NCBI GenBank assembly: GCA_029945375.1
Contig: CM057065.1
Span: 248,001 to 312,000 of the forward strand
From: Agaricus subrufescens
Taxonomy: Eukaryota; Basidiomycota; Agaricomycetes; Agaricales; Agaricaceae
DNA length: 64,000 nt
Reading direction: 5' to 3'
Both the position numbers and the translations under genes were made by a program. The notes beneath the pieces are model-generated. The model saw nothing but the letters and a program-made list of their open reading frames with translations, was not told the origin of the DNA and ran no database searches. The number at the start of each line of letters is the position of its first letter. Positions within the stretch are counted from its first letter, which is position 1. Shown here in pieces: positions 24,885 through 60,644 of this stretch.

Positions 24885-24910
24885 TCAAGTGGCCAAACCT
24901 TTTGCTGATG
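24791..24910. repeat. 120-bp near-perfect palindrome at the LINE ORF2 3' end
   Basis: 24791-24850 is the inverted complement of 24851-24910 with 57 of 60 positions matching and no spacer. It contains tandem ACTTGAAGCT-type 10-bp repeats. The right arm encodes the last residues of ORF2 (SAKGLAT then TGA); the left arm is untranslated. The pre-rearrangement end of ORF2 may be lost. Palindromes with no spacer are also prone to assembly and cloning artefacts. Confidence 0.8.
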
Positions 24911-29167: not shown

Positions 29168-29168
29168 A

Positions 29169-32142: not shown

Positions 32143-32599
32143 TGTCGAAACAGCACCGTAGCTTGCGCAATGGCAGGGACTCAATTACACACCTGTAGAG
32201 AATATAGATATACTGAATAGAACTTTGTAAGTCTTTCAGATAGATTGTAGACGAAATATGTGAGAGATATTCGAGCTGTCTTTCATATTCATAACATAGA
32301 GCTTATATACATGTAGCATAAGTTTGATATAGATAAAGTGACGAGTAGATCGTCTCATAAGATGTGGTGCGAGGTAGACATTAATCTCGAGCAGCATAAG
32401 CAGCTCGAGACGATTGGTCGGAATATTAATGAGGGTCTACTAGTAGCTTAGTAGAATTCTGGATATGCGTTCCAAGAATGATCTGGAACGTTCTAATTGT
32501 TCCTACTATGTGTGGGGACTTAGTCAGACGTTATAATAGAGTCCTGGATGTTTAATGTGTGATGGGTATTCGGGGGAAGTCAGTAGTCTGACTTTAACA
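32143..32599 (-). repeat. Copia 3' LTR
   Basis: 457 bp, TG...CA. Compared with the other LTR it differs at 32183, 32371, 32460 and 32545. At three of these (32183, 32460, 32545) this copy carries the deaminated CpG; at 32371 the other copy does. Confidence 0.95.
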
Positions 32600-32641
32600 C
32601 TCCCCCTCGCTACAGATAGTAGGAAAAACGGAATGTCGAGT

Positions 32642-35600: not shown

Positions 35601-37885
35601 CAAGTGTGAATGTGATCAACGGTGATATTCCCGACCATCCCTAGTTCCTTACTCTGAAGAATTTTGGAGTCTAGGTAATGTAAGGTTCCTTTTCCGCTTC
35701 CTTTTAGAGCAACAAAAACCGGATTTCCAGTCATGTCATAGACGGTCGTGTTTTGAGCATTTGAAGTGATAGTCAAGCCATCCTTCGCTAGTTGTCCAAT
35801 GGACATAAGTCGCTGGGATGATCCTGGCATGTGCATGACAGGCCAGAGTTGTGAAGTACGTGGGATACGCTGTCCATTCTGATGCACCTCATGTTTGATC
35901 ACAACCGTTCCCATTCCAATGATTTCCAATGGAGCGCTTTTATTGGCGGTTTCAACAACTATAGGCTTAGATAGCTTTTCATATTCAATGAAATCATCAC
36001 GTCTGAATGTAAAGTGTGAAGACGCCCCAGAGTCAAATAGCCAACATGCACGATCGCATATTTGGTTGTTTTCGCATAAATAGCATGTGTGATAAGAAGA
36101 ATCACCATATATTTGCGCAGGTTTTGCTACGTTAAAATCTAAGCTGTTTGTACATTTTGATATGCCTTTAAGATAGTCTACATCTGAATGTCGGGTGAGA
36201 CGATTGGGAAGCAATAGTCTTCCTCGTCGTCGTAGTAGACAGGTCTGTAGATGGCAATCATAAGTACCAGCACATTGGTGATACAAAGGTGACACTTGCA
36301 TATCATATGCGTTTGCTGCGATCGCTTCGCTAGCTTCATTGAAAGTGTCAACCGTTACGAACGCTCCTGGAACGTCAGGTTCAGAGGTGAATGACGGTTC
36401 TTCGAGATGTCTGGTGACCACATCCTCTGAGTCACTGCTCGCTTCCTCTGAATCAGAGGGACCGATCTCAGATGAGAATTCCCCTTGTTCCTCCTCATCA
36501 CCGATGATTACAGCGTCATCATCGTTGACATTGACCCAAGGAGGTTGAATAGGGGCCTCTCTGTTCATCTCATCATCCTCGCTTTGATCATTATTATCAA
36601 CATATGCAACATTGGCATTATCAACTTCCTCTGATAAAGGAATGGAAGTGATTTCCGGAAATGGTTGCGGTTGTTGATGATCAATATAGGAATTTGGTGG
36701 AGATGATGAAAGTCTTTCTATTAGAGGAAGTGAAGAGTGAGAAGAAGTAGGGCTTGGCTGAGGACCGGGGAAGATGCGGTCAATCAGTGCTCCAAGTCCA
36801 GACGAGTCGTTAGAGAGGATGGAGGTGGAGCGAGACTTCCTTTGAGCTCGGGTAGCCCTAAGCTTGCGGAGGCGAATCTCATGCGCTGTGAGCGAGGGGT
36901 GATAGTGGGATGGAAGGTCCGCGGTCGAGGGAGTAGGAAAGAGGGTATGGAAGGCAGCAGGAGAGGCGAACTCGACGTCTGGAGTGTAAACCATATGAGA
37001 GTGATGTTGATGCGATTCTCCATGTTGGTTGTGTTGGTTCTTTCTTCCCCGATTATTTCCACGTCCGCGGTATGATCCTCTCCCATTGAATCGTTTACCA
37101 CCACGAGAATTGTTGTGGTGATTATTTAACCGGTTATCTCCAGTATGATCCTTGGAGCCAGCTTTAAAATTCCCTTTCTGGTTATTCCAGTGTGGGTTAT
37201 AATCACCCTTGCGTTTGAGACCTGAGATCCGGGAAACGGATGCCGATTGAGCAGAGGAAGACCGCCGAACGAATTCTTCCTTGATTGCTACCGCAACATG
37301 ATCGAAATTTAAGTCGGATGACTTTGTGGTAGCTAGGATGGTGGAGGAAACTCCATCCCAATCGGAAGGCAAGGCAGCGAGTAAGATCATCGCTTGCAGC
37401 TCTTTGGCGATCGTGTATTTGGAGTCTGCTGCGGTGAGACGGCTGAAGGATGCTCTGAGACTGTTTAAGTCCGGAGTAGGATCTCTATCACTGGCAATTC
37501 TCATGCGCATGATATTCTGGAACTCGGAATAAATGAGAGCCGTTCCCGGAGTTCCATACGAAGCAAGGAGGGTGTCCCAAAGGACTTTGCTAGTGGTATT
37601 GGTGGAGACATGATGCAATAAGGATGAATGAAGTCGTAGGGTGATGAAACCGGCGGCTTGTTCATCCTTGCCTTTCCACTCGGCAAGTTCGTCTGCATTG
37701 GTGGGTGAAGCCACGGATCCTGAGGGATATCCCCAGAGATTGTGTGACTGCAAAAAGGCGCGCATCTTGATGTTCCACTCGGCGTAGTTAATGCCGGTGA
37801 GCTCAGGGATGCTCGCTGATACACCAGAAGTAGTATTGGCCATCTGTAGAGAACGGCGAGTATCAGCATTATTGCTTTGTCTCAA
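32642..37885 (-). pseudogene. Copia gag-pol polyprotein with one premature TGA
   Basis: One reading frame from the ATG at 37885 (or 37843, MANTTSG) to the stop at 32642, broken only by TGA at 33446-33448. In order: gag-like UBN2 region (ELTGINYAEWNIKMRAFLQ); a basic R/G/N/H-rich segment with no CCHC knuckle visible; aspartic protease DSGASSHF; GAG-pre-integrase WHRRFGHPS...CSGCTLGK; integrase with HSDLIEFP, FYDDFSSYV, FRTDRGGEF and GRAERMIRTLREK; reverse transcriptase LDVKTAFLYGKLDEEIYM and YVDDALFMG; RNase H with CDSDWASDP, SSTEAEYMA and ADLFTK. The frame continues directly across the TGA (RDRKK, stop, ILYLDQRTYLDKV), so it is a single nonsense change. Confidence 0.93.
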
Positions 37886-38081
37886 AAATAGAACAAAGGA
37901 ACGAGAATGTGATGAGGTATATCAACTATTCCCATTTGTGCCGAACAATTGAATGTCGGCGTTACGATACAGGCAACGCTTCCTTGGGAAGCGGATTCCG
38001 AGATCGACGATCTGATAAAGAGATGTCTATCATCGGGTCATGATCTGTAGAGTCCCAATCGGCCCATCGGGGCCCATAACC

Positions 38082-43088: not shown

Positions 43089-44144
43089 ATGCGCCAGCCC
43101 ATAGAGCAAGAACCAACATTGTTGAATATGTCTCAATTCAACGAGGTAAGTGGAGTAAACCAATGAAGCCTGTATCTGTCCCCTCTGATGAACGATTTAT
43201 CTTGTGTAGATTGTGGTGCTGCTTTCAGATATATTGCGAGATGAAACAATGAGGGAAGGACTATTTAAATTCAGGGGTTATCATGCTCAATGTTTGATTG
43301 ACTTCTTGGATTATGTGCGTGATCATGTTCTCATCAAGAATTAGCATTTGACAATGTCTAGTTTCTTTCAGATCCTGAACTTCGGAGTACAATAGACCCA
43401 CAGCTGCTCCAGCTGTCTGTGGCCGCCTTGGGCAGACTCTGTGAAGTTTCAATATTACACCCTACCAATTATGTTCTCAGTGGCATCCGAGATGTGGCCT
43501 TGAAGTGGGTAGGAGGTCTTTGCGATGTTTACCAGGGACGTTACAATAGGCAACATCTTTGCCTCAAGGTGATACAGGTAGATCATATGCAAGAGCGACA
43601 TCAGGCAATTAAGGTACGAAATCACCGGTCCTGCTTCTAGCTGCTTACTTATCGCCATGTGCTAATAGGAATTCTGTAGGGAAACAATCTTCTGGAATCA
43701 ACTCGCCCATCCCAACATTGTGCCGTTCTATGGTATCTTTGATTTAAACAGGAGAGAACGGCTTTGCTTCGTGTCGCCCTGGATGAAGAATCTAGATATC
43801 AAGGCATATCTGCGAAGTGCGCCTAAAGCTCCACGGATACCATTTGTTAGTTTCTTTTGCTTTTATCCCTAACATAGAAATGCCCGCGTTCTTTCAAGAT
43901 TTATGACATTATCAATGGTCTCCAGTACCTTCACACTATGAACATCATTCATGGGGACCTTACAGTGGTCATTATTCTACACGAAATTATTTGCTTCTGT
44001 GTCACTGACTAGCTTTTTTAGCGGAAGGTCCAAATCGACGACTATTTAAATGCTTGCTTAACAGACTTCGGGATATCAACTGTTGTAGCAGCTAAAGGCC
44101 TTGACTTTACCGCACGTTGGACTTCTCCTGAGCGTTTGGAGGAT
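43089..44144 (+). pseudogene. Kinase-like gene 3, 5' part (split by DNA transposon)
   Basis: Exons 43089-43145, 43210-43314, 43362-43613, 43669-43845, 43899-43967 and the first 123 nt of exon 6 (44022-44144). The coding frame is undamaged: CLKVI lysine kept, catalytic loop HGDLTVRK, and TDFGISTVV. The frame then runs into the 16.5-kb element after the codons for ERLED. Transcription would have to cross the element, so the gene is presumed inactive in this allele. Confidence 0.88.
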
Positions 44145-44992
44145 GTCGGAAAATTCTAAACGGGGTATTTAGGTGAAACTCCCTGAACTACCCTTTTAAG
44201 GCCTTGCCGGCCGGCTCTAGTACCTAAATATTTACCGTAACCACAATTATGTCTTTTTACCACACTGTACGTACAATAATGTTTGGTTCTGTCTGAATAG
44301 ATCTTAACAGACTAAATAAACCCTAAATATGGAATGTGAGGGGGACCTACCCTCGAAAAATAGTTAAGCCTTAACCGTGACCGGTAAGACTTATGGAACT
44401 GAGTTACAGTGCCAACATATCAATGCTACAACATGACGTATCTGTAAACGAAACAGATACATGTTTGTCATCCATCAGTGTCAGTGCATTGGCGCCATGT
44501 ATATTTTAAACCAAGGTTTCAAAATAGATTAGATGTTATGATGATTTCACAAAAAGAAAGGCGGCGCTATGAGCTACAAGTCGAGATTCAATAAGCGGTC
44601 ACCGCAGATGTAATGAGGCGAGCAGTGCAAGCTCATTTTGTCAATTTAGGCCGACTACTACGAAACGCGGACTGAGAACGCGTAATTTCCTTCCACTCGT
44701 TCTTCTCCATGGTAAGATTCCTTGTTAATACCTCCTTTAAAAGTCGGCGGTACATTAGAATGTTTTGGGGCGTGTATACCCCCTACATGGCGGCCGTAGC
44801 TGTCAAACACACGAAGGGTTGCATGAGAGTGGTTTGAAACGGAACCAGGGCAACCAGAGCGGTGAAACCCACATCTGGTGGGAGATAAGAGATCATAATA
44901 AAAAGATAAAAGGACTAACCACGAACCTGATTTGGCACCAAAGAGTGCCCGCAACCTTTTTTTTTTTTGCATATGTCGTTACCTTCGGCCAT
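44145..44992. other. Left terminal region of the Plavaka element
   Basis: Non-coding. Holds the left inverted repeat (44145-44165), a GCCGGCCGGC palindrome near 44209, and CCTAAA/TTTAGG words shared with the right end. An imperfect hairpin lies near 44440-44465 (GTATCTG...CAGATAC). Confidence 0.6.
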
Positions 44993-45204
44993 ATTTCCTT
45001 CAAACCACGTTGTATAGCGTCATCCAATTCACTCATATTGGTACTCGATGACGCTAAGCGATAAACCCGGACCACTTGCTGATCGAAGTTGGCTGCAGGT
45101 GTCGGAACGAAAGTAACCCAGCGAATAAAACATCGTGGGTTGTTGCAGAGGTGGGTGCGGAGATGCCTATAAAGGTTCTGCATTTGACGGGCTGCAACGT
45201 ACAA
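44993..45204 (-). CDS. Possible exon of an unidentified minus-strand gene
   Basis: The open frame reads RQMQNLYRHLRTHLCNNPRC, then FIRWVTFVPTPAANFDQQVV, then SELDDAIQRGLKEIWPK. It ends at a plausible donor (AAG|GTAACG). Composition looks coding but I recognise no family and cannot join it securely to other exons. It could be the 3' part of the SPT7-like gene upstream or an independent remnant. Confidence 0.3.
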
Positions 45205-45547
45205 CGGAGATGGCAGTCGAGGGAGGGAAGATAATGGTCAGTGTGAGTGAAAGAATGAGGCTAAACACGGACGTGCCTTAGGGATTTATCAGCTCAAATA
45301 GTAGCGTACAAAAGCTGAGGACAACTTCAAGATAAACGCGAGTGTCCTACTTCATATATTCTTCAAGTTGAGCAGACAGATGCACGGCGGTACTTTGAGT
45401 ACACCTCCCAGGTAAATGCATCGCATTTGGCGACAAGATCAACACGACATTATATGTGGGTACGTAGGTACGCTCCAAATCCACCCTCTCAATTTCTTTA
45501 ATACTCATCCTTAAGCTTTGTCAATGTTGTACGAAGAGCCTCGGAAT

Positions 45548-45769
45548 CTATGGAACGGTCATAGAGCCTGAGGCTTTTCCATTGCATGGCTGTATACCGT
45601 TGTTGGTCCAAATGCACACCCAACTCTTAGTCTGCTTTTTGACATGTTCGGCATCAATACCTACCTGTCTGTTGAAACGATTTCCGAACTCCCGCACCAC
45701 TTGTGAGCTCAGTTGAAATTGTGAAAGCGCATACATTATTGATTCGTTGTGCTTAATATTGGATACCAC
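45548..45769 (-). CDS. Possible exon of an unidentified minus-strand gene
   Basis: The open frame contains SSQVVREFGNRFNRQVGIDA, then EHVKKQTKSWVCIWTNNG, and stops at 45548. Codon use looks protein-like; no domain is recognised. It lies between the exon at 45204 and the bromodomain fragment on the same strand. Confidence 0.3.
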   Translation of the reverse strand: MVSNIKHNESIMYALSQFQLSSQVVREFGNRFNRQVGIDAEHVKKQTKSWVCIWTNNGIQPCNGKASGSMTVP

Positions 45770-46002
45770 CAGAAAACCCAGAGCGCGTAGCGAATGTGAT
45801 CGATGAATGATTTATGGAAAGATTTGGATTTTTGCTTGTGCACTGTAACACAGAGCGGAGATCATTGAGGGCAGCGCAGACTTTGTCAGGCACTATACCT
45901 CACCAACTGCGCAGCAAGGTACGAAGCCCCTACATACAACGAGCGCGGTAACTCATTCGAAAATTTGTCATGAGATATGGAAGTAGGGCGAAGATGCCGT
46001 TT

Positions 46003-47085
46003 CTAGATCCTTCTTACACCCAAGGGTAGTCTATGACTTGGTAGCTGTCTGCGGCCACTAGCCGTCTTATGATACAAAAGGCAGGAGGGGCAATGGGGTG
46101 CGGTCCCCTCCAAACAGATGTTTGAGACGATGACAGAAGGCCTATCGTGTGACAAGTAGGAGTTTCTGGCATAGGAGTGCGTTAGGCGAAGAGAGTACAT
46201 GGACGGTGGAGCTACATCTTCTGGCCCATCCGTATCTGGCAAAGCTAAATCCTTCAATTTTCTGTAAGACTTGGTGATTAGGTTTCTTGAATTCCAATAT
46301 AACGTCTTAGTCCAATTCGTAGAAGGTACCCATTCCCTCCGGCGTTCGGACGATAGCAGGACTTTCTTCAAATTGAAAGGGGATAATGGATGCCGTGATA
46401 GGGAGCTCGAGGACGAGGATTTGACAGTCGCTAGACCCGGGGTGCTGGTTTTTATCGAAGAATATGAGGGAGAGTGAGTGTGGGTTCGACTTGTGCCATT
46501 CACTTTGGGTAAATATCTGGTGCCAAGCTCTGGTGGAATGTATGGGTCGGCGCGCTCGCATTGATCGGTGACGTGATTGGACAAACGTTCCGTCTTTGCT
46601 TTGAGCCGTTTGACGCATTGCCTGAGGGGATGATTCTAACCACTGTTCTCAGCGCCCAGGAAAAACAACATTAGACCTCAAGACGCACCTCAGAGGCATT
46701 ATACGTATAGTAATTTGACCATATAAGCTCCAGGTCGTCTTTGAACTCGCGCTTATGTTTGTAATCCTTCAATTTGACCTTCTTCTGCATTGTTTGAAAG
46801 TCCATTGGGTTTGAAATGACTAATTGGAGTTGTCCGTCAGTGCATGATGTGAGATGCGATCAATGGTTAATAACAAACCGTCATAGTAGTCTGGAACTTC
46901 GGCCTTGGACACCGACTTCAAGAATGCATCTGCATCACGGTTATCCTGGAGAAACAATACCATGAGTGTAGTGTATGTCGCGAGGGTGGTGGGGCACGGA
47001 CGAGGGTCACAGTCTTAAGGTCTGCCAACACCCCATCTAGGGCATCATAAAATGGGTCTGGGGGCTTGTTGTCGACGCTCTGCTT
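46003..47085 (-). pseudogene. SPT7-like bromodomain gene fragment carried in the transposon
   Basis: Exons 47085-47002, 46945-46879, 46819-46689 and 46635-46003 join with consistent phases across GT...AG introns. The product includes PFYDALDGVLADLKTVTL, DNRDADAFLKSVSKAEVPDYYD, NPMDFQTMQKKVKLKDYKHK and EFKDDLELIWSNYYTYNASE. This is the bromodomain with the acetyl-lysine-binding Asn in YNASE, closest in my judgement to fungal SPT7 of the SAGA complex. HPLRQCVKRLKAKTERL and DPYIPPELG follow, also SPT7-like. After about 46,460 the similarity stops and an unfamiliar tail runs to 46003. The N-terminal part and the SPT7 histone-fold region are not found, so this looks like a captured, truncated host gene. 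Confidence 0.7.
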
Positions 47086-47776
47086 CTAGATTGCACTAGT
47101 TAGCGGGGGATATAGTGGCCTGTGTATCGATTGCACTCGCAGAAAGAAGGGCATACAAGAATGAATTGACGAAGTTGAAGGACAACGTGGGATGATAGGG
47201 AGGAGCAGACGGAGGAGCCACAGGCGACCGAGTTTGATAGAGGGCTTGGGTATCACAGTGTCAGACCGAGAAATGCAAAACAAAAGAGGCAATGTCATTG
47301 CATCATAGTGGTCGATAGATGTCGCAAGCACCGTCGGATCCTTGCAAGAGAATGTTGATTCCCATATAAAGCAATCGGTAACCTCATAACTTCAATACAT
47401 AGTCGTTCCAAACGACCATATTCCACATAATGGTCAACCCAGTCATCATTTGAAGAAGTGCTTGTACTTACATGACCGACCTGTGGGCTCGTTTGACCTT
47501 TTAATCCCAAGAAATTGAAAACGGGCACTCGTAGCATTCAGTGCTATCTTATAGCACCATTCCGTCAATCGCTCACAACATACCAGCCAAATAGCATATA
47601 TAACATTATGTAATTACTAGAGAAGCATATAATGGGCATTAGCAGGAGATAACTTGAAAGATAGAAACTTACCACAAGAGTATGAGCTCAGGGACATACG
47701 TAAGTAAATATATAAAAAAGAGTATTAGTCGCCCCGAGTTTGCAAGAAAAAAATGCCGATGAAACAGTCCCACACT
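47086..47776 (-). other. Region upstream of the bromodomain fragment
   Basis: Possible 5' exons on the minus strand (for example HYVEYGRLERLCIEVMRLP around 47330-47450) but no reliable model. It separates the bromodomain fragment from the 3' end of the 912-aa gene. Confidence 0.35.
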
Positions 47777-50568
47777 TTAGCCACAGTATGTATTGATGAA
47801 ATCCGTGGACCACTTCTCAACGGATGCAGTGGCTCTTCTGCTCTCCCCAAATCCTCGCATCTGTCTTCGCCACTGCGTCGCTGTTAACAAAAGGCTGGAA
47901 TCGATTCTATCTCTGTTGATGATTGAGGCCTCGCGCTCCTTGAATTGACAGTCTAGCCGCGTGTGCCAGCGTCCTTGATCAGCCCCGCTGCCTTCAAACG
48001 TGGTAACGAGAGGAAACCATGATTGCTTCTTGATGTTAGTACCAGGCCCTACAGCACAAGTCAGTATTCAATACTATGGATTGATGCATTGTAAAACTGA
48101 CCGGGAAAGCTTTGGTAGATGCCGCATAAGAGGTCGAGTTCGTCAGCAGTGAGGTCGTCGTCAACGTATTCGATTCCGTCTTTATCCCACACACAAAAAT
48201 TCAAGGCAGGGTTTTGGTGCAACCCCGAAGGCCCTTTCAGTGCTTCGCTAACCCCCACGCCCTCTGCCAACGCCAACCGCCGGACATATCCACCACGTAA
48301 AACTGCGGCGCGACCACGCTGAGAGAGCAAAATGGACTCACACCTCTGCTTCCAGAAGTCATAATCGTTGCGGGTGAATACATGATCCGAGAATACCATT
48401 GGAATCATGGAGCATGGCAAGTCATCACGCAAGACACTGAGACCAATTCGTCTGGACAAAGTGCGAAATGGGACTCCTGATAGAACCAATTCGACAGCAA
48501 TGTCTTGCTCGTTGAAAGTTTCGGGAAGACGACAAATCATGAGGGCAGCGGCGGCCGTGTACACAGCGATGCACCATGTGGCAGTTGACAAACCGCCGAA
48601 GTCAAACATATACAAGTTTGTCTTGGTCCCTCGAACCCGTTTGATGAACCGCAAGCGGCGGCAGAATTTGAGAGGAGAGGGGGAGTTGGGAGCCAAGTCC
48701 CAAATAGTGGCAGGAGGGTCCTTTTTTTCCTTGTCATCGAGGTGTAGCGCAAATTTAATACAAGCTTTGCCCATAGGCGTTGCCCATAGGGCGCTGTTAA
48801 TTTTGACGAGGGCTGTACCGGTGATGGTAAGGAGCACTCTGATGTCGGCGAGTGGTGCCAGTAGACCCTCCTGCATGGACAGCCCATGTGGGGGTATAAA
48901 CCCGTAGAATTTGGTAAGTATATCCAGTACTTCCAGACGTGACCGCTCCTTCTCATCCACAGGTACGGGCACCATTACATTGCGCAAAGAAGAACTTGGA
49001 GGGGGATTTGTCGAGCCGGTGGTGGATGGTGAAGGACACGCAGAGCTGGATGTAATAAGAGGGGCGTTTGAGAAGATAGTAGTTGAAGATTGGGGTCGCT
49101 CAGCCGAAGCTAACTCTCGGTCCCCTGCAGTTGGTGCATTGGATGAAACCTGCCCTTCTTCATCATCCGAGGCCTCATAAGTATCGTTGACCCATTCATC
49201 GCAGACATTCCACTCATTGCAAAATGCGTCGTAGCGGGCCTCTCCCGGGCGGGCATCTTCTAGGGTCTCACCGCGATCACGCTTGGGAACCAGAGTTCGC
49301 GTGAATTTGGGCGGAGTATCCAAGTTCCAGTCCCAGACATAAACTGCAGCACTTGCAGTAGGAGGCTCTCTTTCGCGGTTGAGCCTGCTTTGACGAGCTG
49401 CCGGACTTTCTTTAAGAAGCATCTTTTCGTGACGCTCTTCATGATCGCGTAGAAACGGCCCCCAAATACTTTTACCTGACTTGACAATAGATTGAAGCCG
49501 GCCACCTTTCCAAACTACTTTGCTTAGTTGAGAAGGAGAGGACGGGGGCGGAGAGGAGGGGGAGATAGGGGCGGGATCTACGGCGGTAAAAGGAGATGGG
49601 CTCGCTGGCGTGTACTGATACTCTGTCGGAACATATGAGACGATTGTAAACTTAGAAACCATCAAGGACGTACCGTTTGAGAGCATATGGTCCCATTCAT
49701 TTTCAGTATTGTGGGTAGACGAGAATGGGGAAGTGGATATGACGGTTGTAGCGGCTTGGAGTACTTCAGGAGGTGGTGTCATCAATGGGAAGTTGACATC
49801 TTGGCTTTGCGCGATCTCTCTACAACCCCAGCGATACCACACCGGGACTCCGCAATGATCCAACCACGATGGCGACGGTTGGAGGGGCTGGTCATCGGGG
49901 TTATGTAGAAAAACGCCTGCCCGATTTGCGTCCCAAAAGCGCTGAAGTAAAGGGGCGCAGCATAAGGACTCCCATACACTGATCCGACTCTTATCCCACA
50001 TGACCAAAATCTTGTACCACTCTGTCGGCGAGATGCCCTCCAGATATTTGGGATCTTCCGGTACCATCTTGAGCATCCAGTATAACAGCGCGATCCACAT
50101 CGTGAACCAATCACGACCCTGATGGGCGTGGTGCCACGTCTCGCCCTCTGAAGGATGGCCATTCGTATATCCCCATTTTCGCGTTGAATACGGCTCCAAA
50201 TAATCTATGTTGAACCATCGTGACAAGATGCCCAGTACTTCTCTAATTAAAGTCTCCACGGCCAACCATCGGTTCTGGGAAAGAAACGGTAGCATTCGTT
50301 GGCTACCTTCAGAATTTACGAGCAAGTGTCGGGGCATGTATCCGACATCTTCCACCAGGGCGCCATTCCAGCATACGGGGCGACGCGGCACAAATCCCAA
50401 CCATGGTATTCTGGGCGACCACCAATACGGCTCCTCAAATTTCTCCACGCCAACATTGTTGAAAAACTTGATGTCGTCTTCCAAAAGTTCACCAGGTAGC
50501 TGTACGTCTCTTTTACAATTGGGCGAGTAGTATATATCTCCTCCAATAACATAAGCGCGGCCTGGCAT
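47777..50568 (-). CDS. Large basidiomycete protein of unknown function (912 aa)
   Basis: Two exons: 50568-48102 and 48048-47777, with a 53-nt intron. The intron model replaces an otherwise premature end at 48061 and adds 90 residues (TNIKKQSWFPLVTTFEG and onward). Recognisable blocks are EPYWWSPRIPWLGFVPRRP, GETWHHAHQGRDWFTMWIALLYWML, AAVYVWDWNLDTPPKF, YDAFCNEWNVCDEW and WFPLVTTFEGSG. A low-complexity Ser/Pro-rich linker lies around residues 330-400. I recognise it as one of a large, repeated family of uncharacterised Agaricomycete proteins; no catalytic motif or membrane segment is evident. Its place inside the transposon, divergent from the TET/JBP gene, suggests mobile cargo. Function unknown. 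Confidence 0.75.
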
Positions 50569-51330
50569 CTCGTAGCGATTTTACAGTTATGATTAGGTTG
50601 AGGATGATTCGCAGAAAGCCCGAGAATGAAAGGGGGTTGTAGTTCGCAGGAGCCCGTGAACTTGATAGAAATGATGATCCCAGGAGCCTGAGATCAATGA
50701 AAGCGCCTGTGTACGGTGATTGCGCGTTGTGGAAGAGATCACTGTACAAGGGCAAAGAGGTTGCCATCAAACAATGATCGGAACGCAGCCACAGTTGCAC
50801 GTGGTCCGTTCTGTTGATCCGGCCCGAGGTGACATGTGTGATGAGTGACGACCGTTGCTATCCCTTGTATGCCTCGACGTACGGTCGCTCAACCCCGAAC
50901 TCCATCTATCCTCTGGTAGCCCTGGCAAGTCTTTACCGTAGATTCCTATCTCACTCACTAACCCTCTCCTACCTCTAGAAGACATCTCTGGCCGATGTGG
51001 ATCATCATGGCGGTGCTTGGTTCCTCTTCCTCAATGGCGCTGGGCTCTCTAGTGTCTCACATTCACTATAGCAGGCTCCTGCTATAACACCTCCCTCTCA
51101 CATCTCTCACTCTTATTCGCCTCCGCGTAACAATTCCTGATGCGCACACGATGTAGATGACGTAGTGGGCGATGATGCTGCATTCTTCTTTACATCAACG
51201 TCTGGGCGTGCGGTATAAAAGTCGTGGTGCTGTTGACGCGCACTGCATCTCCCCGGCTCACCAAAGACTGCTCCGCGGACCTAGTAGGCTGGTGCAGCGT
51301 GCGGATATACTGCTGCAGTCCTACCGCACG
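50569..51330. promoter_or_regulatory. Divergent promoter region of the 912-aa and TET/JBP genes
   Basis: A 762-bp gap between head-to-head genes. On the plus strand a TATA-like TATAAAA lies at 51214-51220, about 110 bp before the TET/JBP ATG. Inverted 'caggctcctgc' words occur near 51072. No other gene is seen. Confidence 0.45.
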
Positions 51331-52882
51331 ATGTCCGCACCACAGTATGTTGTCAGCAAGGTCAGTTCCGATAACATTCGACGCTCCTTGGGTTATATTG
51401 ATGGGCTACTTTTCTAGACCCGTCGCGGGCGTGAATATGTGGGCAACGCATGCTACATGTCATTCCCTAAGCAGCATCTCGTTCGCCTTTTGCAAGAAGT
51501 GATCGAGATAGAGAACTGTACAATTGACTCGGAGGTTCTCACCCATGAAAGCGCCATGCCACCACTGAAGAAACGCGCTGCATCACCAACCCTCATAGAT
51601 GACAGTGAGGCTCCACGAGAACCACTCAACGATTTAACACCTCTCACTGCTCCTCGAAAAAAAAATGGTTCACACTTACGTCGCCAGAAGAAGAAAAAGT
51701 TGAGGATAGAAGAACAACGTAAAGAAACGCTTGCGCTCAGTGCCCCTCCCATGACATCGATAATGCCGTATAATTCAGACCACATGAAAGTTCAATCCAC
51801 CGGTTATTGTGCCATGACAGGACAGGAATCTTACCCGCAAATAGATTTGGAAGGATTAAAAAATTCAGGATATGTCGTTCAATCGTGGGATGGTACGCTT
51901 TAAGTTTCTACACGGCTGGACCACCGTCTTACTTTTAAGCAGGTATACGGCCTCTACCGCTCACCGATGATAGTGGCACCGTATATGCTGTTTTCGCCGG
52001 GAGGCCGAAGACTGAAGACTATCTCAACTGCTGTCACCGTCTGTTTGAGGCCCTTGCGGACATGCCGGAACGAGTCAATTTTTCTGATAAACAGCTCCAC
52101 CATCGTCGCGGCAACTATCCTTCGGTAGACTTTGGTATCACGGCCGATCAAGGTCAACCAGAACCGGTTAACTTACACGTTCCGCCAAACATTTCTAAAA
52201 GAGCTAGTCCTATAAATGATTCTTTTGAGATGAAAAGAATCGTGAGATTCTGTGACAGTAGGTAGAGCTCTCTTACCTGCTCATACGATCACTTATGCCT
52301 TATCTAGCTTCTTTTCAAAAGTGGGCCCCACGTTTGCATGCCTATTACGGGGAAACAATGAACAGGCTAGCCAAGCACCCAAAACATAACCACCTCACAA
52401 AACCTAGCTCCGACTCCGTCTTCAGTTCTATGTCTCACAACTATGGCCGTTCCGTGGTAACGGTACCACATCGTGACTACAAAAACCTAGCTTTTGGATG
52501 GTGTGCGGTAGTGGCTTTAGGAGAGTTTGACAGCCAAAGCGGCGGCCACCTAGTGCTCCATGAACCACGCTTAATAGTAGAATTTCCCGCGGGGTCCGCC
52601 GCTTTGATTCCATCCGCAGTTTTAACACACAGCAACGTGGCCATTGGGCCTACTGAACGCAGAGCGTCAGTGACATTTTATAGCTCTGGTAGCGTCTTCC
52701 GGTTTGTGGAGAACGGTTTCCAGACGCTCACCTCACTCAAGGCCCGTGATCCAGGAGAGTATGAAAGACGGCGGGGGGAAATGGAAGGCGGAGTAGGTAA
52801 AGGAAGGTGGGAGATGGGCTTGGAGTTATATAGCACGCTAGAGCAGTTGAAGAATGATGTATTTGAGGCGCTATCTGTGTAG
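51331..52882 (+). CDS. TET/JBP-family Fe(II)/2-oxoglutarate dioxygenase
   Basis: Predicted nucleic-acid base hydroxylase of 464 aa; TET/JBP enzymes oxidise 5-methylcytosine or thymine in DNA. Exons 51331-51360, 51418-51892, 51943-52257 and 52308-52882 join in phase. The first intron removes an apparent TAG at 51415. A basic, Lys-rich stretch (RRQKKKKLRIEEQRKE) suggests nuclear localisation. The conserved upstream block LHHRRGNYPSVDFGI precedes the double-stranded beta-helix. The iron ligands are His328 and Asp330 in VPHRDYKN and His381 in SAVLTHSN. Arg391 or 392 (PTERRASVTFYSSG) should bind 2-oxoglutarate. GEFDSQSGGHLVL and FRFVENGF match mushroom TET/JBP proteins. All catalytic residues are present and no stop interrupts it. 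Substrate is inferred, not shown. Confidence 0.85.
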
Positions 52883-53074
52883 GGTAGCTGCATCAACCTT
52901 CTATCAGTCAACTAATAACATACGATGAAAGCCCTTGTCCTCTCATTGTCCAGGGCATCCAGACTTTCCTTCCTCCGACAGTCACGTTATCATATCTAAT
53001 CGATGTGGTGGTATAAGCAATCAGTCACACGCTCGTTTTCTTACACTTGTTCCCCACAATACCACACTATCAAA

Positions 53075-56000
53075 ATGGAGCGCCACTGCGACTTGTGTAA
53101 CAAACACTTCAATGCTCAAGGATACGGTAGACATCGGATAGCCTGTCTCAAGACCAAAAACAATGCAATGGCTGCAAATGCCCTCAGGGAAGAAGGTACG
53201 ATTACTACTCATGTAATGGTCCATTTTTTGAATATACTGAGCAGTAATACACAGGTAAAATACTTACATATCCAACTATGGTCTACGCTCTCATCTGGAA
53301 AAGGAATTATCGGAGCAGTCAACGATGCTAGGGGCCAAAGCATGCCGTTGTCGTCCTTCAACCCAGTTGAGTATTTGAGAGGAAGTGCGATGTATGAGTA
53401 AGTCATTCCGTTGAATTTTTTATTTAGTTGATACTAGTCATTGTTTTTTACTTTCTTATAAGAAACTCTGATCCGGTTTCTGGTCGTTCTGCCCCGGATA
53501 TACCAGCTGCACAACTCTGGGATGTTGACGGACATCATGATATAGGCGATACTGTAGACGGCACTACAGTAGATCAAAACCTGGTTGGCTGTAAGTCAAA
53601 AAGAAACGGTCAGCTGCTATGTAAATTCACTTGTTTTAGATGATGTAGTCCAAGAAGATCGGCCATGCTATCCTTCCGGAAAAGTAATGGAGGACATTCC
53701 TGATATCGATTCTATCTACACGGAGTATCACCCCTCTTCTGGGAGGTTACCAGAGGTCAAACCGCTACATGAATACAACTATAGACGATTTCCAAAATCG
53801 GCTCCGGTTGATCAGCCATGGAAGCCATTCAAGACGCGCTTAGATTTTGAAGTTCTAGAGTTTGCGATGGAATCCGGATTCAATAACCAACAACTCAAAA
53901 AATATATCAGTCTTTTTCATCGAGCTATAGCGGCAGCCGGGAATGAGGAGGAGAACTTTACGGTGCAAAGTTCAAAAGAAGCGACTAATCTATGGGCGCT
54001 AGCATCTATTAGACGTGTGAAGGCGAGTATTAAGCAATCTGTTTTATTTTCGCTTTGTTACTTATAAACTGTCCAGTTTCAAAAAGTCATGATTGAGCAA
54101 CAGTACCAACAAGAGAAGGAACCGCGATCCTTCCAGTTTTGGTACCGAGAACCATGGGACTGGGCGCTGGAGATAATAAAGGAACCCCGCCTCAAGAATC
54201 ATATTGTCTGGGATCCGGAGAGGAGCTACAGGTGGGACGGGGCAACTTGGGAGCGTATTTACGATGAACCGTGGTCTGGCGATGCATGGTGGCGTGCCCA
54301 GGTAAGTCTGTAAACACTTTATTTATTCCAAACTTCGGTTAACGGCAAAATAATTAGACAACGCTAATGGAAAGCGGGGCACCACAAGGATCGAAGCTTG
54401 TGCCACTAATTCTATACGCTGATAAAAGCAAACTCTCATCATTCGGCACCGCAATGGGCCACCCAATCATTGCTCGTCTTGCTAGTCTTCCCGCTTCCAT
54501 CCGGAACAATGAGGGTGTTGGGGGAGGAAGTGTAGTTGGTTGGCTTCCAATTGTACGTATCATTTACTTAACATGAGACTACATATCAGCTTTGTAATCT
54601 TTGTTCTAGATGAAAGAAATAACATCCGAAACAGGAAAACCTGCCTTTGTACAATTCAAGCATGCAGTATATCATTCGTCCTTCAAGAAGTTTCTCGAAA
54701 GAATTGCCCAACTATCAAATGTGGGCTCGAATACCAAGTGTGGTGATGAGATATTCCGGCCTTTGTGGCCCTTCATCCTAATATTGGCGGCGGACTATGA
54801 AGAATTGTAAGTAATTTTGCTCTCATATGTTGTTCGTAGCTCTGACCTTGCTTTGTACAGTTCGGTTCTGACTCTCATTCGTGGGCATCAAGGTCTATTT
54901 CCCTGCCCCGTATGCCTCGTGCCAAAGAAAAATCAATGGAATTTGTCAATCGACTTCGAGTCACGCACGCAAGAAGACACAAAGAATTTTTTTTTTGAAG
55001 GAATCACTTTACCAACACGAGAACTGCGGGAGCAGCATTTTAAATCAAAATCACTTCGTCCTGTCGAGGTATGTGTTGCACTCAATATGTTCAAATGAAC
55101 TAAATGCGATGATCAATCTATAGAACGCCTTCTGGTCTGTCAACTTGACTGACCTACACTCAGCCGTATCTTACGACTGCCTACATTCGGACGATAATGG
55201 GTTATGGGAAGATCACCTGTTTCCCATCTTCAAGAACCTTGCAAAGGAACTTGGGTGTGCGGCAACATCTAGTATTGATGCTCAGTAGGTCCCTTATTAC
55301 AATTGTGTTCACCTTTCATTCAATTTCTCCGTAGTTTCCGTTCAGTACCCCGATGGAATAATTTGAATCATTTCGATTCTGTAATGAACATCACGTTCAA
55401 CGACGGATCTAAAAACAAGGATATATCAAAGGTACTGATGCGATTATAGATTTTTCAATAGCTTCTTATGATCACTTTTCAAAAGATCTTTTTATATGCG
55501 TCGCAAGCCATTTTTACACGCAACCGAAAATCTGAAGGGTATTACCTTCTTCGCTGCCTTCGACATTATTTGAATGTTAGGATGTATGCGGATTTTGATT
55601 TACACACAGAGTCGTCACTGGCTGCTGCTCAAGTTGAACTTGAACAGAACTTTTACCTTGCTCTCAAGGTAGTCGAGTTTGCTTGGTTTTCAAGCAAATA
55701 TCTACTTACTCTGTTATCAGGAATACTTAGATCACGTTGGAGTCCTTGACGCTCTGACCACCGGGGTTATGGACGAACAGTCTGATCAGAAATCATGGAA
55801 CTTTCCAAAGATACATCTTCGAAAACATCTTGTTCGCGACATTCGTGATAAGGGGGTAACAAGAAATTATAGTACCAAACCAAACGAGAAAATGCATGGC
55901 CCGATTCGAAAAATCTATCATCGCCGAACTAATTTCAAAGATGTGTCTGACCAGGTATCTAACATTGATCTCAACTAATCCCGTTCAATGTTCTAACTCA

Positions 56001-57026
56001 TTAGTGGATGACAGATTCTTCGTGTTGTCCATCACATTGCTGTTTCCCAATCCATACGTAACGAGCTGGATCTCCTAGATGATTGTCACAAGTCGGAGAA
56101 CCCTTCTACTACTGATAGTCCGTCAGAATCTGATTCAGGTTTGTATTGTTACTTCCATTAAGTAGATCAACCGTTGAATTGATTTCAGATGATGAAGACT
56201 CAATCTCAAGCTCAAATTCCATTACACGTCAACTCAATTACCAGGACTTTACGAACTACCGCAAGCTCAAGGCGCCTCAGCCATTATGCTCCTTTGATCA
56301 ATTTGAGGCATTACATCAGAGCGACACATTTTTGTCATTCCGGACACGCCTTACTGGTTATTTGAGAAGCAATCTTTCAGCTCTCGGCATCGCCTTACCA
56401 TTTGGGGCACAAAGATTGGTGTTAAAAGGTTCCGACAAGGTAAGACTTTGGAAATTATATTTAATCACATCCATCGTCTAATATCTAATCAGTTAATGGA
56501 ATGGCATTCGCTCGAAGTTCAATATACGTGTTCTGCTGATTGGGAACTCAAAGCAGACATTTTGAGATGTAACCCTTGCTTTCATCATCATCCAAGATAC
56601 GATTGCGTCCTTGTTCAAAAGAGTCCAACTGACTCATTTTTTGCTCGGCTTCTGGCTCTTTTCACAATCACTATCAATGACCATAATCTTAACCTAGCCT
56701 TTGTTTCACCATTTGAGCCTGTATACAAACACCGAAACCGTAAAATAAGCGACAGGGAACTAGAACTACTTCGACTTCGAGAAACTTCGGCAGCCAACAC
56801 TACATTTGTGTCTATTTACTCAATCATTCGAGGCGCCGTCATAATCCCATCAGGAGAAGAAGCTACTACTCATGCTCCGGACCATCTTCTATTTGATGTG
56901 CTAGACGCTGATATGTTTTTACGCAGTCGGGAGATCTTGGGAACGTAAGTTTGCAATTTTTTGATATTGATCATACCATAATTCATTATTGTTAGTCTTC
57001 TTGAAACAAGCGCAGCAAATGATTGA
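53075..57026 (+). CDS. Plavaka-type DDE transposase (1061 aa)
   Basis: Fifteen exons, all in phase: 53075-53397, 53463-53590, 53640-54016, 54077-54301, 54358-54552, 54610-54806, 54861-55068, 55124-55284, 55335-55431, 55486-55668, 55721-55954, 56015-56138, 56189-56439, 56493-56944 and 56996-57026. The N-terminus has a zinc finger (CDLCNKHFNAQGYGRHRIAC). The core has the Plavaka signature LILYADKSKLSSFGTAMGHP, IIARLASLP, VVGWLPI, FILILAADYEEL, then CPVCLV. Downstream, KSWNFPKIHLRKHLVRDI and NYSTKPNEKMHGP match the usual C-terminal part. The end is VYSIIRG-type sequence with DVLDADMFLR. The acidic residues in YADK and AADYEE are candidate catalytic sites. No stop or frameshift was found, so it may be functional. 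Exon 1 could hide a further intron. Confidence 0.88.
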
Positions 57027-57495
57027 AACGCATTGCAGGATAAAGTCGACAGGGGATTTGTTGTTGTGAGTGCCCCTCCCACGTAAAATCACTTAATGCA
57101 TATTCTAATCATAACGTGCAGACCATGCAGCTGTTTAGATAATAAGATCGATATCATGACATTAATGAAACTGGCAAAATAGTGACTACCATAGCTCGGT
57201 AGGAGTTCTGGAATCCCCTTGACAGTAAGAACGTTATCAAAGATCTTAACTCAGTTGAATAACCCGCTTACAGCGGGCATGTAATGTCATTACTATATAT
57301 GCAAATCAGTGAGATCTCAATGATCTGCAGAAACGCCAGAGGTAATTGTATTGACAACTGAGTAGGCTGGGGACACTGATATTACTCCCGCTCCCACCTA
57401 ACAGCTTGAGTGTCACACCTAGGTGCCAGGGAGAACTATTTAAGAACGTTCAAGGTCAAATTACCCCGCACCCATTCTCACGTCACAGTCGCACT
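57027..57495. other. Spacer between transposase and DUF6698-like gene
   Basis: No gene seen. Contains a short palindromic AACCCGCTTACAGCGGG near 57259 and the promoter of the next gene. Confidence 0.5.
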
Positions 57496-59728
57496 ATGGA
57501 ACGTACACACACAACACCTGTTTCTAGTACCATATCAAGCTCTCAAACGGCGACAACAATTGCCAACTTGCAAGCTGTACGTTCCATTTCACGAGTTTCT
57601 ATCTCAAGGGGAAACATATTTATTGACATTTGTTCACAGGCTTTGATGGACTCGCAAGCTACCATCAGCATTTCAAATGAGGAAGTCCAGTCTCTTCGTC
57701 TGACAAATGCTAGGCTCGAAGCCGAGGCCGCAGCGGGACCCAGAAAACACAAGGGAAACAAGAAGCTTGCTCTCAGTTCTGCTCTTGAAGAGTATTCCGA
57801 CGAACTTCGTAAATTTGCCAACATGTTTACGCTAATGGACTTTCCTTGGGTTGAGCCCAAAGCATTTTTGCAGCCCCGCCCTCTGGTCCCAACCTTACCA
57901 CCCGATCAACGTTATCAAGACGACGCGTCAACACTGTTGCACATGCAACACCGCCTCTACGATAGTTGTCCACCTCACTTATGTATCTACATTGAGAAAC
58001 TAGGGGACTTTGGTAGCAATGTAAGTGCAAGTCTTGCATTCACGGAGCTTGTTTATTGACATTCCGTTTCCTTAGTTCTTGTTATATCAATCCATTCAAC
58101 GTTCAACTGCAATAACAAAGATTCATCGACACGCATACGATATTCTCTCTCCCCAGTTTCCTGATATTACTCGTAATCTCTGTGGTACCGCAGCTCATGG
58201 GTCCCGCGCTGCAAGCGACGCCTGCAAAAACCTATACTTACATAAAGATTCAAGGGGCAACTTTATTTTTAAAGAGATCCTGGCGCCGATTATATACTGG
58301 GAGTGTATAGTTGATGCGAAACACATCTTTCAGAATGAAGCTCTTTTTCAAGTACGTTTATTTACTTGTCAGCTTCATTGATACTTCTCAACAAATTAAT
58401 TTCCCTCATCCGACTAGATTGGTCTTCTAACTCTTTTCGGTCCTTCTGCTCTCACTGGTAGAATTGCGAAGAATAGCCAAGGCCGGAGGTGGAAACTCAA
58501 AGGAGTTTCTTCAGGATTAATTGCATGGTGCTGTATCGTGGTAAGTAATTTATGTCATCATATTTGTAGATAAGCTGTACCACTGACGTTCTCTTATAGG
58601 CGATATATATTTTATCACACGATCGTCAGTTTGAGGAACATGGACCAGACACGGATATTGATTATAATTCTGCCTTCCTGCAATACAAGGAACGGATCGA
58701 GAAACACGAAAGCACCGCTCTCTTCCAACAAATCTTCCACAAATGGAATCAGCGTCTCTTCAGCTATGAGGACTCTACCACCGCTGAGGAGCATCCTCTA
58801 GAGGCAGATGATGTCGCTACACAGTCTGCTATGATTGATGCCGCTTTAGCTTTGGACAATGTTGAGGCGGAACAGACTAACACTCACTTTTCTTTTGAAG
58901 ATACTAATTGTGGTATATCTTCCCAGTATGAGCCGCCTGGTGGGTACTTGTTTCATCTGAAAACTTCTTTCGCTCTGACATGGTAATGAAAATCTAGAAC
59001 CAACTCATGTTCACTTACTCTCCGAATCTAGAGTAAATGAACATCTTGCATGCGCCACACCTGTCACACCTGCCATACATACCATGCCTATTGCACCTGT
59101 CATACCCATTGCGCCCGTTGCGCCTGTTGTACCCGTCGCACCCGTCGCATCCGTCGCACCCGTCGCACCCGTCACACCCGTCACACCCGTCACATCCATC
59201 GCACCCGTCGCACCCACCATACCTGCTACATTGGCAGGTGTTATGTCAGTACCGCCACACATTCAGTCTATTCCTTTGCTTCTTCCGTCACGATCAGGAT
59301 CCGTCATTTCTCTCAATGACCATGAGCAAGATGATCCATCAGGTGATGATTCTCAGTCTGACACTAGATCCAACACCGATAAACAAGGTTAGTCCCTATC
59401 ATCACCGGATTTCAATTTGATCATGTTCTCAATTTCTTTAGATATGGTCACCCTCAACCCAGGGTTGACCTTCAATGCGGCTCCTATTGTGCCTCCACGC
59501 CGTCTTACTCCTTCCCTTCCTAGTACTCAATCAATCTCTCAGACAGGCTACCAGCATATCAACACTACTCTTAGTGCCCAGATGAACAACTTGACCGTGG
59601 GTATACCAGAGAGTAATAGTGCTGAAAAGCAACCTCGGAAGGGTAGAAAACCATCAAAGAGAGGTGGCAGTAGCGTCACCACTCAGCAGACTAGACGCAG
59701 CACTCGTATCAATCACTCATCTAATTAG
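57496..59728 (+). CDS. DUF6698-like transposon-associated protein (625 aa)
   Basis: Seven exons, in phase: 57496-57576, 57640-58020, 58076-58351, 58418-58540, 58600-58939, 58998-59387 and 59442-59728. The central region ([60 protein letters not shown]) resembles DUF6698 proteins that are abundant in Agaricomycetes. A Ser/Thr-rich N-terminus and a predicted helix ([20 protein letters not shown]) come first. Exon 6 holds an A/T/P-V-rich repeat tract. The basic C-terminus ([14 protein letters not shown]) may bind nucleic acid. It lies just downstream of the transposase on the same strand, so an accessory role in transposition is plausible but unproven. Confidence 0.75.
59075..59220. repeat. 9-bp coding minisatellite
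   Basis: About fourteen tandem units of the CACCCGTCG/CACCCGTCA type encoding APV/TPV tripeptides in the DUF6698-like protein. The array is imperfect at both ends and keeps frame because the unit is 9 bp. Confidence 0.8.
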
Positions 59729-60644
59729 TCTATAGTATACACCAATTTGATCACAGATTTGATTGTGATTTATAAGCCTGGGAAGATCCCAGCTTCGTGG
59801 GAATTTATGTTGAACACTCTTGTATTTTAGGTCGTTCGTCTTTTAGCTTCTCCTTTCACCGTCTCCACCATCTCCCCCATCTCCCCACTTCTTTTTAACC
59901 TACCTTCTCCGTTTTCCCCGTGCATCAGTAAGTTCAGCACTCCATAATGCACGTTTATTATTCTGAACATTCTTTTCAATAGTGTGGTATTTTGCCTTCA
60001 CCACCATGCACAACGAGCAAAACTAGGTACGCCCTCACCCATCTTGAAATGCTTAATACTAACATGATATTATTAGGTGTACCTAGCTATTTGAACGTGT
60101 CCATGTTTCAGCATCACATCCATGTTGTCGTTGCCAGCAGCTGCTTATTTTTGAGTGCCGTGTAGCTTGTAGTTAAATATTACATAATGAAGAATTGTAT
60201 AATCCAGAGAAAATAAAGAATTATATAATCGGGAGGAAATTAGAAAAAGTCACCTGATTTCACCTAATAACACCCGATATTTGTGTAGACCCTGAAATAT
60301 GAACCAAACTAATGCTATTATGGTGGGCTTTTAGGCCTAAAAAGGCCTTTATTGTATTGGACAAAAACATCTTATTAGAGCCCTACTGGCCATTTTAGAT
60401 GTCGTATGCGGCTTATTAGGCGACCCCCTCAAACGAAAAGGGTCTTATTAGGGTCCTACTGACCATTTTAGACAGCTTGCCTGGCATTTTAGGTACCCAT
60501 ACACCTTATTAGGTAATCCCTGTCACTAATTAGGGTTCTTGGCATTCTAAACAGGAAACGTTTTGCTGTTTAAGCCTAAAAAGACCCCTAGCCTAAAAAG
60601 GCTTGATTAGGCCTTATCACGTTGTTAGGAAATTTCCGACAGAA
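59729..60644. other. Right terminal region of the Plavaka element
   Basis: Non-coding. From about 60320 it becomes a dense array of subterminal words: CTTATTAG (four copies), TTTTAG and GCCTAAAAAGG (three copies). A 30-bp direct repeat (60371-60400 and 60444-60473, 26 of 30 matching) contains CTTATTAG and CCATTTTAGA. The right inverted repeat is at 60620-60640. Such arrays are usual transposase-binding sites in CMC elements. Confidence 0.65.

Follow-up and report, generated by a model that had tools for sequence, protein, structure and literature searches.

A Plavaka transposon with selected accessory genes, including a putative TET/JBP-like dioxygenase, in an Agaricus-like mushroom genome

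Why would a mushroom DNA transposon carry a TET/JBP-like dioxygenase gene, and which of the other genes between its ends belong to it? We addressed this for a 64,000-nucleotide stretch of DNA (the window, to which coordinates refer unless a contig is given) from an Agaricus-like mushroom genome, whose best-scoring matches among named proteins come from Agaricus bisporus. The stretch contains a Plavaka DNA transposon of 16,498 bp at 44144-60641, which corresponds to C9:292144-308641. We consider it probable that this is an autonomous cut-and-paste Plavaka (CMC/CMCT clade) with PlavakaA-type ends and three selected accessory genes, among them a dioxygenase that would counter silencing. The features of the element are as follows:

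44142..44143, no strand: target-site duplication, left copy (GA, 2 bp)
44144..44543, plus strand: left terminus TGTCGGAAAATT, with three subterminal T[TA][TA]TTAGG repeats within 400 bp on the two strands together
46212..47112, minus strand: captured host-gene slice with an SPT7-like bromodomain (902 aligned positions, introns kept)
47777..50568, minus strand: 895-aa protein, 3 exons (50568-49674, 49622-48102, 48048-47777)
51331..52882, plus strand: putative TET/JBP-like 2OG-Fe(II) dioxygenase, 464 aa, 4 exons, HRD...H...R motif
53075..57182, plus strand: Plavaka transposase, about 1030 aa, 15 exons to 56944 and a putative short last exon
57496..59728, plus strand: DUF6698-like protein, 625 aa, 7 exons, internal 9-bp tandem repeat at 59066-59233
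60142..60641, plus strand: right terminus ...TTTCCGACA, with eight subterminal T[TA][TA]TTAGG repeats in 500 bp
60642..60643, no strand: target-site duplication, right copy (GA, 2 bp)

The paired inverted ends (TGTCGGAAA/TTTCCGACA) that a preliminary description of the locus had recognized are confirmed, and the T[TA][TA]TTAGG motif occurs once in the 15.6 kb between the two ends. That description had placed the element at 44145..60644 with a 3-bp duplication; its ends instead lie at 44144 and 60641, with a duplication of 2 bp, GA. In the window copy taken alone, the interrupted reading frame, that of a kinase gene, is restored by a 2-bp or a 3-bp duplication alike, so that the flanks of the other copies (CA, AG, TA, CA) decide the length. 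The longer candidate, GAT, fits the window copy only and was ruled out. Two-base flanks match in all five complete copies (GA, CA, AG, TA, and CA), four of which start with TGTCGG and one (C9b) with TGTTGG, and all five end with CCGACA. All five thus have the TGT..ACA termini and 2-bp duplications of PlavakaA, and the element lacks the CATCA..TGATG termini of PlavakaB. By its ends the element is PlavakaA-type, an assignment that rests on the termini and the duplication length.

The transposase places the element among Plavaka transposons, with a PF18759 match of 167.9 bits (E = 4.3e-49, cut-off 26.3). Its translation, read by eye, contains CPVC, which fits the C(2)C motif, and HLRKH, which fits the H(3-4)H motif; Plavaka has both between the second D and the last E. 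The preliminary description of an intact 15-exon transposase holds for the 15-exon core, whose frame is uninterrupted and has the same length in the window copy and in C3, C5, and C6. Within the genome's Plavaka tree this transposase forms a deep separate branch, with 17-24% identity to 22 other Plavaka sequences.

When the 301-bp terminal segments of both ends were used as queries, four further complete copies (C3, C5, C6, and C9b) were recovered in addition to the window copy. C3 is 99.86% identical to the window copy over 16,502 bp, ungapped, and C5 is 99.1% identical over 16,541 bp; C6 and C9b are diverged relatives, with 83% and 73% identity of aligned positions. That 16.5-kb copies of nearly the same sequence occupy unrelated sites, with a 2-bp duplication at every one, shows that the element has moved with its cargo and was recently active, which bears out the initial proposal of a mobile Plavaka element with the dioxygenase inside. 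None of the five copies with both ends found by these searches is free of cargo; a solitary left end of 351 bp, lacking cargo, is present on C38. C6 and C9b keep the gene order of 895-aa protein, dioxygenase, transposase, and DUF6698-like protein, and all four reading frames are uninterrupted in the window copy, C3, C5, and C6, four of the five copies. The C5 transposase and the C6 895-aa protein were considered as broken genes and rejected as such, since their stops vanish once in-frame introns are spliced out.

The DUF6698-like protein, correctly named from the start, matches PF20414 at 30.9 bits (E = 2.8e-7, cut-off 23.7), and its gene is open in C9b as well as in the other four copies. The protein of unassigned family first described as 912 aa is present, but an additional in-frame intron at 49623-49673 reduces it to 895 aa. 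A Pfam search with the 912-aa reading gave no match at E up to 1. The genome holds at least 34 loci related to this protein, and a Pfam scan of six of 34 relatives gave none over the cut-off. Its gene is divergent from the dioxygenase gene, with 762 bp between them, and both are open in the window copy, C3, C5, and C6. Relatives of the two are also paired about 7 kb apart at two places on C11, neither with a listed Plavaka match within 19 kb, the Plavaka list being a lower bound.

The four genes are under purifying selection. Across the four genes and three pairs of copies, dN/dS is 0.08-0.25 (0.11-0.16 for the 895-aa protein, 0.12-0.16 for the dioxygenase, and about 0.08 for the transposase core), and in resampling (34-40 each) all values stayed below 0.33. 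Together with the open frames in four of five copies, this selection indicates that the four genes belong to the element. Between the window copy and C6, dS is about 0.5, dN/dS is far below 1, and the frames are open in both, from which long maintenance of the four genes follows.

The left region of the element is a patchwork with host-derived slices. The SPT7-like bromodomain, which had been taken for conserved cargo, is a damaged slice of a host gene: it is 93.5% identical to its source at C3:3900079-3900979, yields a bromodomain match (E = 2.4e-20) once spliced by eye, carries an in-frame stop and 1-bp indels downstream, and has no match in C6 or C9b. Its origin by capture, this damage, and its absence from the two diverged copies rule it out as functional cargo. 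The left side appears to pick up host-gene slices without evident use. Pack-type transposons capture slices of host genes, and the bromodomain slice resembles such captures in being genomic, with introns retained, and in moving with the element; unlike Pack-type transposons, the capturing element here is autonomous and large.

The dioxygenase gene is intact, as first described, but the putative TET/JBP assignment is weak by profile: the Pfam Tet_JBP match scores 14 bits (E = 0.031), under the cut-off of 34.9. The protein has the HxD...H triad and downstream R of TET/JBP enzymes, with the iron-binding residues named by analogy. Among 21 aligned family sequences, H328 is invariant and D330, H381, and R392 are at least 90% conserved. 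Of the 30 loci with a related dioxygenase, 10 have a Plavaka match no more than 5 kb away, against 0.48 expected; the other 20 have no listed Plavaka match within 5 kb, the list again being a lower bound. KDZ matches are found near these 30 loci in no case within 5 kb and in one within 15 kb, against 1.31 expected, and none of the genome's 94 matches to the KDZ transposase model PF18758 falls inside C9:292144-308641.

The preliminary comparison, in which mushroom TET/JBP genes were linked to KDZ transposons, is out of date, since TET-positive Plavaka transposons have been published from Agaricus bisporus and Gymnopus confluens (Kojima 2025, PMC12730594). The window element resembles these in combining a transposase and a remote TET/JBP-like dioxygenase in one Agaricales element. 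The published TET-positive elements are all stated in that paper to be PlavakaB, with CATCA..TGATG ends, and its PE-type TET/JBP enzymes are marked by HxE; unlike them, the window element has TGT..ACA ends, a 2-bp duplication, and an HRD enzyme. A second Plavaka lineage in this genome likewise has HRD, rather than HxE, in its C10 and C7 copies. The same account shows TGT..ACA termini and 2-bp duplications for PlavakaA, as here, yet reports PlavakaA without TET; membership of the window element is read from its ends. KDZ (Kyakuja/Zisupton) elements with AG-type TET are likewise mushroom DNA transposons with a TET/JBP enzyme, but their transposase is a different one (PMC12730594). DUF6698 does not occur in the main text of that paper. 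TET-type cargo is thus extended to a Plavaka class without TET in the one published survey (PMC12730594), and two further conserved accessory genes are added to it.

We propose that the dioxygenase would oxidize 5-methylcytosine, or a different methylated base, in the element itself or in DNA close to it, and that the transposase gene and ends would thereby escape host silencing, with the 895-aa protein as a possible partner or targeting factor. As judged from sequence, the dioxygenase may protect the element from methylation. In the genome, four DNA-methyltransferase-like matches exceed the Pfam cut-off. With near-identical, intact, and diverged copies all in one genome, the methylation of carriers and non-carriers becomes directly comparable, and the claim that transposons use TET against silencing becomes testable.

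The enzyme could instead be another 2OG oxygenase, acting for example on protein or RNA and aiding transposition differently, with TET/JBP as a superfamily resemblance only. The low Tet_JBP score fits this alternative, as does a scan of ten family members singly (E < 0.1), in which two matched Tet_JBP, five the general 2OG-FeII_Oxy_3 model, and four neither (P0003, P0012, P0015, and P0017 matched no family; P0019 matched another). A profile search against solved structures points the same way, its six weak matches including no dioxygenase and no TET. Across the 21 family members, eight match 2OG-FeII_Oxy_3, but six match Tet_JBP (best E = 1.8e-4). Remote profile similarity also characterizes the published PE-type TET proteins carried by Agaricus transposons, whose acceptance was based on their predicted fold (PMC12730594, section 3.2.3). 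We regard a different 2OG oxygenase as rather unlikely.

Alternatively, the cargo may be useful to the host and merely ride along, since purifying selection is expected for whatever function benefits either the element or the host and by itself has no power to separate the two; this is improbable given that several diverged mobile copies have kept the genes and that a related dioxygenase is present in the second, distant Plavaka lineage. That the genes are passive passengers, recent captures that have had no time to decay, as the host-derived slices of the left region might suggest, is contradicted by the selection test for all four (dS about 0.5 between the window copy and C6, with open frames) and is highly improbable.

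The two halves of the element have different histories, since in C9b dS is 1.4-2.1 in the half with the 895-aa protein and dioxygenase versus 0.45-0.54 in the half with the transposase and DUF6698-like protein, roughly a threefold difference. In the second lineage, the transposase is 21% identical to that of the window element and the dioxygenase shares 53% identity across 147 residues in its catalytic part. Based on the half-specific dS of C9b and this related dioxygenase, we tentatively suggest, with less than even confidence, that the 895-aa protein and the dioxygenase may form a portable anti-silencing block, of an HxD type outside PU, AG, and PE, that passes between Plavaka lineages separately from the transposase. 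As a separate observation on the second lineage, its left border lacks CATCA and its right end carries TGATG.

The Plavaka element occurs in five complete copies. They emerged when its terminal sequences (301 bp from each end), the check proposed with the preliminary description, were searched against the genome (44.65 Mb in 44 contigs, with the window at C9:248001-312000); the left end was found at six places and the right end at five, window counted.

Complete copies of the element
Window copy: 44144 (TGTCGGAAAATT) to 60641 (AAATTTCCGACA), 16,498 bp, GA flanks on both sides
C3 copy: C3:3764269-3780766, flanks CA/CA
C5 copy: C5:2497898-2514425, flanks AG/AG
C6 copy: C6:83098-97746, flanks TA/TA
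C9b copy, a second one on C9: C9:466378-482576, flanks CA/CA

Rejoining the window flanks with a single GA restores an open reading frame with similarity to protein kinase models (PF07714, E=1.3e-18). Because the 3-bp duplication proposed earlier is likewise in frame, the remaining copies decide: 2-bp flanks match in all five, expected by chance about once per million ((1/16)^5, assuming equal base use), and the duplication is 2 bp. On C38, the sixth left-end place has a 351-bp stretch of that end; the 1.7 kb between it and the contig end had no match among the other sequences compared. Against the window copy, the C3 copy has 24 mismatches over 16,502 gap-free positions, and the C5 copy 99 differences and 7 gap openings over 16,541 positions. 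Near-identical complete copies with matching flanks show that the 16.5-kb element is real and that the whole unit, cargo included, transposed recently.

From the left, a patchwork region is followed by four genes, given here as refined models:

Minus strand: 895-aa protein, 3 exons
Plus strand: dioxygenase, 464 aa, 4 exons
Plus strand: transposase, about 1030 aa, 15 exons and one short, putative last exon
Plus strand: DUF6698-like protein, 625 aa, 7 exons

All four are open in the window, C3, C5 and C6 copies (in the case of the transposase, this refers to its 15-exon core), in line with the intact transposase and dioxygenase originally described, and the 912-aa protein is present and open too, with its length revised to 895 aa. 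In C9b, the DUF6698-like gene is open, two internal stops interrupt the gene for the 895-aa protein, the catalytic part of the dioxygenase is retained though its C-terminus is lost, and the transposase has two stops within a 425-codon core. The DUF6698-like gene contains an in-frame 9-bp tandem repeat (window 59066-59233); relative to the window copy, the exon with this repeat is reduced by 72 bp in C6 and by 54 bp in C9b.

Pairwise dN/dS over the window copy, C6 and C9b (34-40 resamplings each) was 0.08 for the transposase core, 0.12-0.16 for the dioxygenase, 0.11-0.16 for the 895-aa protein and 0.22-0.25 for the DUF6698-like gene. The three cargo genes are thus under selection and maintained, as the transposase is, in a unit that is mobile as a whole and has an open transposase gene. 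Across the four genes, dS between the window copy and C6 is 0.45-0.57. When C9b is compared with either of these copies, it is 1.37-2.08 for the 895-aa protein and dioxygenase versus 0.45-0.54 for the transposase core and DUF6698-like gene; fourfold sites agree (55-61% versus 24-33% differing). Just past the dioxygenase, across roughly 52.6-53.6 kb, the window copy and C9b go from about 70% nucleotide identity to more than 83%. The two halves of C9b therefore differ in history, and by these sequence comparisons either the 895-aa protein and dioxygenase were exchanged jointly or the right half was.

The SPT7-like bromodomain fragment described in the element lies in the patchwork region, where window 46212-47112 is 93.5% identical to C3:3900079-3900979 over 902 aligned positions, introns included. 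After splicing by eye it gives a Bromodomain match (E=2.4e-20, compared with 1e-23 for the host version), and its bromodomain exons can thus still be read. Against solved structures, the host version matches Spt7-named chains (E=3.6e-22 and 1.6e-16), with polybromo-1 and TAF1 scoring higher; SPT7 is likely the name of the source gene. Further downstream, an in-frame stop interrupts the piece, its alignment to the host version contains two 1-bp gaps, and no match to it was found in C6 or C9b, which rules it out as conserved cargo: it is a captured slice of a host gene and no conserved reader. Further slices at window 45530-45918 resemble other genomic sequences (69-78%), some of them multi-copy, which suggests that the left region holds additional captured pieces.

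By profile, the assignment of the dioxygenase to TET/JBP is weak. The window protein scores 14 bits against Tet_JBP (cut-off 34.9); 6 of 21 family members match this profile (best 1.8e-4) and 8 of 21 match 2OG-FeII_Oxy_3 (best 0.0027). HRD...H and a downstream R are conserved across the family, with exceptions in single sequences. The enzyme belongs to the 2OG-Fe(II) dioxygenases and is probably TET/JBP-like. The canonical Tet_JBP profile matches only three loci in the genome, with equal scores (C2:3846077, C7:2235142 and C14:163711), none of them within the 30 dioxygenase loci (58 grouped matches); compared by eye, they have no KDZ or Plavaka nearby among the matches listed.

At least 10 of the 30 dioxygenase loci lie within 5 kb of Plavaka (0.48 expected) and at least 12 within 15 kb (1.43 expected), given at least 135 Plavaka matches in at least 71 loci (123 of 153 candidates scored). 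None lies within 5 kb of KDZ (94 matches, 65 loci) and one within 15 kb (1.31 expected). DUF6698 gave 20 matches in 9 loci, with none of the element family's five copies among those listed; all nine lie within 15 kb of listed Plavaka matches (0.43 expected), although just one is as near as 5 kb, and all of them are more than 15 kb from any of the dioxygenase loci. The 895-aa protein gave at least 61 matches in at least 34 loci (55 of 107 candidates scored). Its relatives P0042, P0044 and P0050 carry a precomputed PF28437 label that the Pfam scan did not return. At two mirrored places on C11 (2123373-2131513 and 2179196-2187337), relatives of the dioxygenase and 895-aa protein stand divergently about 7 kb apart, with no Plavaka within 19 kb among the matches listed.

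Five of the ten Plavaka-adjacent dioxygenase loci are the element's own family, and the other five (C2, C5, C7, C10 and C14; L052-L063, L049-L063 region) form a second lineage, counting as fewer events since C2, C7 and C14 have common flanks. Its transposase is 21% identical to that of the element (288 residues) and its dioxygenase 53% (147 residues), even though within the element's own family the transposase core evolves more slowly (92.5% amino-acid identity between window copy and C6, versus 80.9% for the dioxygenase). The closer relationship of the dioxygenases points to transfer between Plavaka lineages. The second lineage has a common right border, TGATG, like the right end of PlavakaB, while its left border, AGCACGAGTGGC, shows neither an inverted repeat nor an evident duplication.

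Reference 21 of Kojima 2025 is presumably Iyer and colleagues 2014. Kojima 2025, in its main text, describes a Plavaka-TET/JBP association as implied earlier, in that reference, and reports TET-positive Plavaka in A. bisporus and G. confluens, every one of them belonging to PlavakaB, with a PE-type enzyme (hallmark HxE); PlavakaA has TGT..ACA ends and 2-bp duplications (PMC12730594). Compared with these, the element joins PlavakaA ends with an HxD enzyme. Going by titles and abstract openings for 10 of the 11 papers found that name Plavaka, Kojima 2025 alone deals with TET in these elements. Fungal transposons are suppressed by DNA methylation, and TET enzymes oxidise 5mC (PMC12730594); the dioxygenase might keep the element's own genes or ends accessible. 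Subterminal T[TA][TA]TTAGG repeats, plausible candidates for transposase-binding sites, occur three times in the left 400 bp, eight times in the right 500 bp and once in the 15.6 kb between. The motif is CpG-free, so any methylated site would fall in adjoining sequence.

Elsewhere in the window, positions 1-24000 hold NACHT (NLR-like) genes arranged in tandem. The best-scoring named match of one of their proteins is from Agaricus bisporus (72% identity, 91% of query), and certain metagenome proteins show higher identity across less of the query (78% over 81%, 90% over 54%). The host is probably a member of the Agaricaceae near Agaricus. At 24885-37921 lie reverse-transcriptase ORFs that look LINE-like (988 aa) as well as an ORF of 1491 aa resembling Copia, all named by eye.
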